Assembly (NCBI GenBank): GCA_009788065.1
Contig: WQSF01000008.1
Location: 1-59,213, forward strand
Direction of reading: 5' to 3'
Origin: Treponema sp.
Lineage (GTDB): Bacteria; Spirochaetota; Spirochaetia; Treponematales; Breznakiellaceae
Length of the DNA: 59,213 nt
The stretch's first letter is position 1. The number at the start of each line of letters is the position of its first letter. Made by a program: the position numbers and the translations under genes. The notes under the pieces were generated by a model, which was given only the letters and a program-made list of their open reading frames with translations, was not told where the DNA came from and did not search any database. Positions 17,776-19,208 of the stretch are shown here, in pieces.

Positions 17776-17847
17776 GTCCCCTTCGTCTAGTGGTTAGGAC
17801 ACCGGGTTTTCATCCCGGCAACAGGAGTTCGACTCTCCTAGGGGATG
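17776..17847 (+). tRNA. trnE: tRNA-Glu (TTC anticodon)
   Basis: The 72 nt fold as a full cloverleaf. The acceptor arms are GTCCCCT and AGGGGAT (one G-U pair), the D arm contains TAGTGGTTAGGA, and the anticodon arm is CCGGG-TTTTCAT-CCCGG with anticodon TTC. The T arm is CAGGAG-TTCGACT-CTCCT. The 3' CCA is not encoded, so tRNA nucleotidyltransferase must add it. The acyltransferase ATG begins only three bases after the discriminator base, and the AGGGG of the acceptor arm sits where a Shine-Dalgarno would be. Confidence 0.95.
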
Positions 17848-17849
17848 TA

Positions 17850-19208
17850 ATGCGAAAACCTTATCAAAAGCCTGTTCTTACGGCCTCGCCTGATGTTAAG
17901 GTCGCTCCACCGGTTATATCAAAATTAGCGATATTCCTGATTTCATTGATTGTAAGACCCTATATTATCTTCCTTTTCGGTTTTGCGAAGCTTGAATTAC
18001 ACGGGGATTCGATTTTATTTGATGTTTTTAGGCGTTCTTTATCCGGGAAAAGCCGCAGTATTATCGCTTTTCGCCATCCCGACGGCAGGGAACCTCAGCT
18101 TTTATCATGGCTGTTCACCTTTAAATTGAAATCGCTGGCGCTCAAAAAAAAGATTAAATTTGACAGGAAACCTCATTCCATTTTTGTTTACGGGTACGAG
18201 GTCGCAAGATGGGGAGGCCCTGTTGTGCGAATTGTCATGCCGAAAATGGGCGCGATTCCCATACATCATACAAAACTTGATTCTAAAGGAATGACGAAGA
18301 TTCTTAACTCAATTACCGACGGCTGTTATCCCTTATCGCTTGCGCCAGAAGGACAGGTTTCATATTCGCAGGATACGGTACCGCGTCTTGAATCAGGCGC
18401 GATACGGATAGGGTTTCAGGCGGCTTCCGCCCTCGCGGCAAAAAACAGCGGATGTCCGCTTGAACTTCTGCCTCTTTCTGTTCATTTCAGATACGGCAGT
18501 TTTGGAGAAGCCGCGATGCAAAGGCTTTTAAAAAAAATCGAAAAAACATGCGGCTTTATAAAAAAGGAATCAAAAAAATTATCCTTTGATACCCGGATTA
18601 AAAGATGCAGGGATTTAATCCTTGAAATTAATGAAAACCGTTACGGAATAAAAATCGATGATTCGTTATCATTTAAGGAAAGGCTTGATAAGGTAATCAA
18701 CTGCGCGCTCTCATGCTCGGAGCGAATGTTGGGAATAAAAAGCGAAGGCGATTTTTTTATCAGGCTATACAAAGTGCGCCATATTTGCTGGGATAAAATT
18801 TATCTTGCCGGGATAGACAGCTTTAAAAAAACCGCAGGAGTAAGACGCAGTGTGATGGATTTGCAAGCGGGAGAAGCCTATTACATCGCGCGCCATCAGG
18901 AGCTTGCGGATTTTGGCTGGTACTTTAAAGAAGCTAATATACAGGAAGACTGCGCGCTTCATAATAAAGTTGAATATGTTCAAAATCTTTGGGATTTCGC
19001 AAACCGCACAATGGGAGGAGCGCTGGCAAACAGGGTTAATATTCATCCGCGAAAAATAATTATTAAAACTGCTCCCGCCATTGATCTTGGCACGCGTCTT
19101 GAACATTATAAGGAAAATAAAAGAGAAGCGGTCGCCTCGGTTTCGGCGGATCTTGAGAAAGCGTTTCTTGATTGCATAAACGAAGTGAATAACAGCGTGT
19201 CAGGATAA
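17850..19208 (+). CDS. Phospholipid/glycerol acyltransferase family protein
   Basis: The protein has 452 residues. A hydrophobic segment (about 22-46) probably anchors it in the inner membrane. The PlsC-like features are FRHPDGREPQ (about 74-83) at the place of the HX4D catalytic motif, here H-X4-E, and LAPEGQVS (164-171) at the place of FPEGTRS, which binds the phosphate. The long C-terminal half has no recognised domain. Its likely role is acyl transfer to a lysolipid or glycerol phosphate. The start is ATG 17850, two nt after the tRNA; the longer upstream frame runs through the tRNA and is not used. Its only apparent promoter is that of the tRNA. Confidence 0.7.
   Translation: MRKPYQKPVLTASPDVKVAPPVISKLAIFLISLIVRPYIIFLFGFAKLELHGDSILFDVFRRSLSGKSRSIIAFRHPDGREPQLLSWLFTFKLKSLALKKKIKFDRKPHSIFVYGYEVARWGGPVVRIVMPKMGAIPIHHTKLDSKGMTKILNSITDGCYPLSLAPEGQVSYSQDTVPRLESGAIRIGFQAASALAAKNSGCPLELLPLSVHFRYGSFGEAAMQRLLKKIEKTCGFIKKESKKLSFDTRIKRCRDLILEINENRYGIKIDDSLSFKERLDKVINCALSCSERMLGIKSEGDFFIRLYKVRHICWDKIYLAGIDSFKKTAGVRRSVMDLQAGEAYYIARHQELADFGWYFKEANIQEDCALHNKVEYVQNLWDFANRTMGGALANRVNIHPRKIIIKTAPAIDLGTRLEHYKENKREAVASVSADLEKAFLDCINEVNNSVSG

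Follow-up and report, generated by a model that had tools for sequence, protein, structure and literature searches.

A tRNA-Glu gene two bases from an acyltransferase start codon in Treponema: possible release of a leaderless mRNA by tRNA 3' processing

The tRNA-Glu/acyltransferase junction

The stretch of DNA analysed here (the "window") comprises positions 1 to 59,213 of contig WQSF01000008.1. It belongs to a draft Treponema sp. genome of 2.1 Mb (98 contigs, 70% complete; assembly GCA_009788065.1), and going by their isolate names these Treponema assemblies presumably come from the termite gut. The sole tRNA gene of the window, found by both ARAGORN and Rfam, is a 72 nt tRNA-Glu(UUC) at 17776–17847 on the + strand; it ends in AGGGGATG, with the discriminator G73 at 17847, and its 3' CCA is not part of the gene. 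Directly after AGGGGAT, the 3' strand of the acceptor arm, and G73 come TA (17848–17849) and then the ATG (17850–17852) of a + strand open reading frame of 452 amino acids (17850–19208), which alignment and predicted structure indicate to be a PlsC/GPAT-like acyltransferase. The two-base gap given in a preliminary description of this DNA is therefore correct, since the tRNA end called by ARAGORN is 17847. The acceptor arm sequence AGGGG (17840–17844, + strand), proposed in that description to serve as the Shine-Dalgarno site, does lie in the appropriate place, five bases 5' of the ATG, and the predicted fold pairs it with CCCCT. That fold is no more stable than those of shuffled sequences (z 0.11), which leaves ARAGORN and Rfam as the basis of the tRNA call; at the junction, folding (z-scores 0.11 and 0.15) showed no stable structure beyond the tRNA. 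Bases 71–73 of the tRNA spell an ATG, which runs straight into a TAA that overlaps the real start. Misassembly is unlikely, as the same tRNA-gene linkage is repeated in the assembly of another species (locus L113, WQSN01000011.1).

A 29 amino acid, very basic open reading frame lies on the - strand at 17545–17634, divergent from the tRNA, with AGGAG preceding its GTG start. It had no match in Pfam and NCBIfam searches and may be "COX24-like". A basic frame of the same length at another locus (L066, genome G020) is downstream of the tRNA-Glu gene and on the same strand.

The acyltransferase and its start codon

The previous label "acyltransferase" holds at the level of the fold. The AlphaFold2 model (pLDDT 88.6) aligns with human GPAT1 over 243 residues (Z 17.8, rmsd 3.6) and with PlsC over 192 residues (Z 16.0, rmsd 3.0), structures that are not acyltransferases score Z 5.5 or less except for one complex I chain at 14.1, and the best Foldseek match has an E value of 6e-4. 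Among the 30 aligned orthologues H76 is invariant and at least 90% have Glu at residue 81, giving a His-X4-Glu (H76...E81); the catalytic motif of the PlsC/GPAT superfamily is His-X4-Asp, and His-X4-Glu is a variant from the lipid A acyltransferases. On the strength of the structural model, the window protein is assigned to the acyltransferases of the PlsC/GPAT superfamily. It has the fold in common with the PlsC/GPAT glycerolipid acyltransferases (Z 16–18), and PF01553 matches are found in five of the 30 aligned orthologues (E up to 0.01, best 2.6e-5), whereas searches of Pfam and NCBIfam with the window protein gave no match (none to PF01553 at E 0.1), and its identity to the solved structures is only 12–16%. 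A sequence profile search of solved structures returned only two matches, with E near 1.

The first methionine is invariant in all 30 aligned orthologues; the ATG at 17850 is thus the conserved start and very probably the correct one. A start codon further downstream, which the preliminary description had named as a finding that would refute its proposal, is unlikely because the N-terminus is conserved.

Transcription from the tRNA promoter

The best promoter-like site before the tRNA is a sigma70-type TTGACA-17-TATATT at 17729–17757 on the + strand, which matches the consensus at 11 of 12 positions and ends 18 bases upstream of the tRNA. Transcription would be expected to start near 17764, so that the pre-tRNA would have a short 5' leader (17764–17775, + strand) for RNase P to remove. 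A weaker site (9/12) is present at 17660–17689. The scanned stretch contains six promoter-like sites against 4.3 in shuffled sequences, so site numbers alone prove nothing and the argument depends on the quality and place of the site at 17729–17757. The consensus scan found no + strand promoter- or terminator-like site between that promoter and the ATG, and hence none of the separate acyltransferase promoters, between tRNA and ATG, that would have contradicted the earlier proposal. Because a strong promoter precedes the tRNA and no such site follows it before the ATG, the acyltransferase gene probably shares the tRNA-Glu transcript.

Were there a weak promoter within the tRNA gene, it would yield its own leaderless mRNA without need of tRNA processing, and promoters placed for leaderless starts do occur in these bacteria (see below). 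Consensus scans, however, detected no + strand promoter-like site inside the tRNA and, for the window gene (L031), no -10 hexamer in the 45 nt before the ATG, and we regard such a promoter as very improbable.

Leaderless starts among the orthologues and in these genomes

Among 61 orthologue loci, 46 had an alignable start and enough upstream sequence (one was dropped because its upstream sequence was too short, and the start filter removed 14), and these gave 40 non-redundant upstream regions. A tRNA is fused to the acyltransferase gene in only two of the 40, so the fusion is a minority form. The other 38 include two regions from other genera of the order (L047 and L049) and named loci that carry no genus assignment. 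When a promoter was required to match at 8 or more of 12 positions and to have a -10 box ending 5–15 nt before the ATG, one was found in 25 of the 38 tRNA-free regions; dinucleotide shuffles gave a mean of 2.8 and a maximum of 8, and a zone of the same width 30–40 nt upstream gave five. Transcription of these orthologues would thus be expected to start within about 0–8 nt of the ATG. A Shine-Dalgarno word (AGGA, GGAG or GAGG, a set that does not capture weaker sites, AGGGG among them) is present in six of the 38 and absent from 32. Since the -10 box is near the ATG in 25 of 38 and a Shine-Dalgarno word is mostly absent, the mRNAs of the unfused orthologues are probably leaderless or nearly so.

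The same arrangement appears more widely. Of 421 open reading frames sampled from two genomes, 22 have a -10 box located exactly 6 nt upstream of the start codon, the position expected for leaderless starts, against 5.9 expected from the per-position count further upstream (P about 3e-7, the 6 nt position having been chosen after the profile was seen), and leaderless promoters seem to be common in these genomes (L209–L212, L215–L234 and the window). Shine-Dalgarno words precede 112 of 262 and 68 of 159 of the sampled frames (about 43%), compared with 20 and 18 in the control zone, these frames being the output of a simple picker and not of a trained gene finder; leaderless starts are therefore a subset and not the rule. 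Both kinds of start appear to be in use in these bacteria, and the acyltransferase family appears to use mostly the leaderless kind.

Recurrence of tRNA genes next to start codons

A tRNA-Glu gene identical to that of the window at 72 of 72 bases is found in Treponema sp. Co191P3bin12 (L113, which seems to be identical with L083 of genome G060), where a gap of 6 nt separates it from the conserved ATG of an acyltransferase orthologue. The two proteins are 62% identical, and the flanks and upstream genes differ. In this species, unlike the window, the ATG of tRNA bases 71–73 is in frame with the gene, making an open reading frame of 468 amino acids. As to conservation of the gap in related genomes, put forward earlier as a check on the junction, a second species has a gap of 6 nt, only two of the 40 upstream regions being fused. 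At one further locus (L085, G026:C77) a tRNA-Glu(ttc) gene and, as judged by eye, a phosphofructokinase-like gene adjoin the acyltransferase gene, the tRNA and the acyltransferase being divergent. Comparison with this locus suggests that a local rearrangement made the tRNA-Glu fusion.

A stronger case is the junction between tRNA-Cys and a gene of the CNNM/CBS/CorC_HlyC family (the family name is taken from the copy in the window genome, G000). A tRNA-Cys gene is present in 38 of the 39 genomes of the genus, and with one cut by a contig end 37 can be assessed; in 32 of these 37 a tRNA-Cys(gca) is followed by the ATG of the CNNM gene 2–11 nt past the discriminator (L018:1501-2833 and 31 further loci). 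In the remaining five the CNNM gene is 51 nt away in one and no such gene is present in four. Genome G003 has a CNNM gene only at the second of its tRNA-Cys copies and is counted on that basis; in G008 neither copy has one. The spacer sequences diverge while the 2–11 nt gap is kept in all 32 genomes, and a Shine-Dalgarno word was found in none of the 32 spacers, whether they were scored alone or preceded by a single fixed tRNA-Cys arm. Of 23 genomes from other families in the order, 22 have a tRNA-Cys match; none of these 22 loci (three are without a parsed tRNA end and some are cut by contig ends) has a CNNM gene nearby, and by eye many of them show a terminator-like hairpin immediately downstream of the tRNA.

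Other tRNAs are found in similar positions. A tRNA-Met(cat) at L285 (G031:C95) is followed, with zero bases between, by the ATG of a 357 amino acid protein that we take to have the look of a metallophosphoesterase. The matches listed also include tRNA-Val(gac), tRNA-Pro(tgg), tRNA-Gly(ccc) and tRNA-Val(cac) genes with the ATG at +3, +2, +3 and +7, respectively, which were picked by eye and are examples, not rates. The gaps at L139 and L010 (tRNA-Val(gac)), L182 (tRNA-Pro), L186 (tRNA-Gly(ccc)) and L125 (tRNA-Val(cac)) are 2–16 nt, and by eye the proteins encoded there are secreted, lipoprotein-like or P-type-ATPase-like. Several other short gaps look spurious, having TTG starts or, as at L178, a likelier start further on behind a GGAG. 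An ATG-started open reading frame begins within 11 nt of a tRNA in two of 30 cases in the window genome, three of 36 in G031 and none of 36 in the outgroup genome G037; the tRNAs inspected were 30 of 33 in G000 and those at the loci of 30 of 47 matches in G031 and 30 of 42 in G037, where neighbouring tRNAs brought the number to 36 each. The third G031 gap (11 nt, between a tRNA-Ser and a 97 amino acid frame) is probably spurious. By these sequence comparisons the linkage of tRNA to ATG is more than chance, being present in a second species and recurrent in the genus against none in the outgroup genome G037.

Might the junctions be passive, the result of deletion of a spacer with promoter and terminator, after which the gene is simply read through from the tRNA promoter, gap and processing being functionally meaningless? 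About 8 of the 12 tRNA-Glu(ttc) loci L061–L072 have, by eye, a terminator-like hairpin after the tRNA, so a deletion there would create a fusion, and the tRNA-Glu fusion occurs in two species only. Such an origin does not readily account for the recurrence with different tRNAs and different genes, or for the preservation of the 2–11 nt tRNA-Cys/CNNM gap in 32 genomes despite diverging spacers, and we consider it unlikely.

The acceptor arm as a ribosome site

If the transcript is cut at the end of the tRNA only UA (17848–17849, + strand) would remain before the AUG, while an uncut transcript would include AGGGG. The preliminary description supposed that ribosomes start on the uncut transcript by way of this AGGGG, and that tRNA maturation therefore competes with translation. 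The spacing is suitable, since AGGGG is five bases before the ATG in the window and nine bases before the conserved ATG in L113, but the sequence is paired in the predicted fold. Moreover, in other genomes of the genus the arm of tRNA-Glu(ttc) is GGAGATG in 12 of 12 loci (L061–L072), which would make a better Shine-Dalgarno site, yet both fused species carry the weaker match GGGGATG (three further tRNA-Glu loci have GGAG in two cases and GGGG in one). Most unfused orthologues are without a Shine-Dalgarno word, as are the tRNA-Cys junctions. We find initiation of this sort quite improbable, and AGGGG, although well placed, is probably not the ribosome site. Because AGGGG is paired, the orthologues are mostly of a probably leaderless type and the tRNA-Cys junctions lack a Shine-Dalgarno word, tRNA maturation probably makes the functional mRNA rather than competing with it. 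What stands of the earlier proposal is that cutting at the tRNA 3' end would yield an mRNA whose leader is reduced to the UA before the AUG, and it is plausible that acyltransferase expression is tied to tRNA processing.

The single further locus with a GGGGATG arm (L208, G034:C52) has a tRNA-Glu(ttc) gene with the ATG of a 62 amino acid open reading frame 11 nt downstream; this frame could be a further gene linked to a tRNA, or else a relic. The 16S rRNA 3' end with its anti-Shine-Dalgarno sequence was not found in these assemblies, the exact pattern being present in none of the 39 genomes; a looser pattern matched in two of the 39, with one mismatch each, and these matches were judged to be due to chance.

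Processing of the shared transcript

CCA is encoded in none of the inspected tRNAs (0/30 in G000, 0/36 in G031 and 0/36 in G037), so RNase Z is the enzyme expected to generate the tRNA 3' ends. A match to the RNase Z family above the cut-off is present in 35 of the 39 genomes of the genus, that of the window included (G000:C26). For the B. subtilis enzyme, PMC10100781 reports about 200-fold stimulation when a uracil lies no more than 2 nt from the discriminator. In the window a U directly follows G73, at 17848, and the predicted cut is between G73 and U+1 (17847–17848, + strand); among the tRNA-Cys spacers, 24 of 32 have a U within 2 nt and eight have none.

We propose that tRNA-Glu and the acyltransferase gene form one transcription unit read from the promoter at 17729–17757, that RNase P would trim the 5' side of the pre-tRNA, and that RNase Z would cut after G73, as CCA is not encoded. 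The 3' product would then begin UA-AUG, with a predicted leader of 2 nt, and would be translated as a leaderless mRNA. The tRNA 3' cut would in this way replace the promoter that unfused orthologues set almost on the ATG, and tRNA-Cys with its CNNM/CorC-family gene would follow the same logic widely in the genus. Such a bacterial "tRNA punctuation" feeding leaderless translation, in which co-transcription, cut and leaderless translation are all read from sequence, is the explanation we favour, with moderate confidence. RNase Z products are expected to have a 5' monophosphate, which usually speeds decay, and faster decay may be a cost of making an mRNA by this route.

Relation to known systems and implications

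In the tRNA punctuation of animal mitochondria, cuts at tRNA ends free mRNAs with few or no leader bases and no Shine-Dalgarno sequence, and tRNAs there abut coding regions, as at the window junction with its two-base gap and at the zero-base tRNA-Met junction of G031. The present case differs from the mitochondrial one in lying on a bacterial chromosome, where there are ordinary promoters and many genes have Shine-Dalgarno sites, and in that the 3' end of one tRNA alone would define, by a predicted cut, the 5' end of one mRNA. The tRNA-tufB operon of E. coli, where a tRNA and a protein gene are on one transcript, resembles it in the shared tRNA/mRNA transcript proposed for the window; the protein gene of that operon has its own leader and ribosome site, for which the window junction has no room. 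Leaderless mRNAs are described in mycobacteria (PMC4633059), and a leader of less than 10 nt is the definition applied to Streptomyces and E. coli (PMC4681348). The window mRNA, too, is predicted to lack a Shine-Dalgarno sequence and to have its start codon no more than 10 bases from the 5' end, but the leaderless 5' ends given in PMC4681348, where transcription start sites were mapped, are on that account promoter-set, while that of the window would be set by tRNA maturation. Leaderless bacterial mRNAs, tRNA-protein operons and mitochondrial tRNA punctuation are thus already known, and what would be new is their combination; a literature search among open-licence papers brought up no recognised account of a bacterial mRNA 5' end arising from tRNA 3' processing.

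A broader reading is that the genus uses tRNA 3' maturation generally to make mRNA 5' ends, the tails of tRNA-Cys, -Glu, -Met, -Val, -Pro and -Gly carrying leaderless genes whose output would follow tRNA transcription and RNase Z. We put this forward tentatively, as a possibility somewhat short of an even chance. By eye, many of the genes in tRNA tails have envelope or lipid functions. The 32 natural variants of the tRNA-Cys/CNNM junction allow spacer length and sequence to be compared, and leaderless translation in spirochaetes would, if the proposal is true, become testable. Expression of envelope genes would then be linked to the enzymes of tRNA maturation, and the release of mRNAs by tRNA cutting, as in mitochondria, would also work in a bacterial chromosome.
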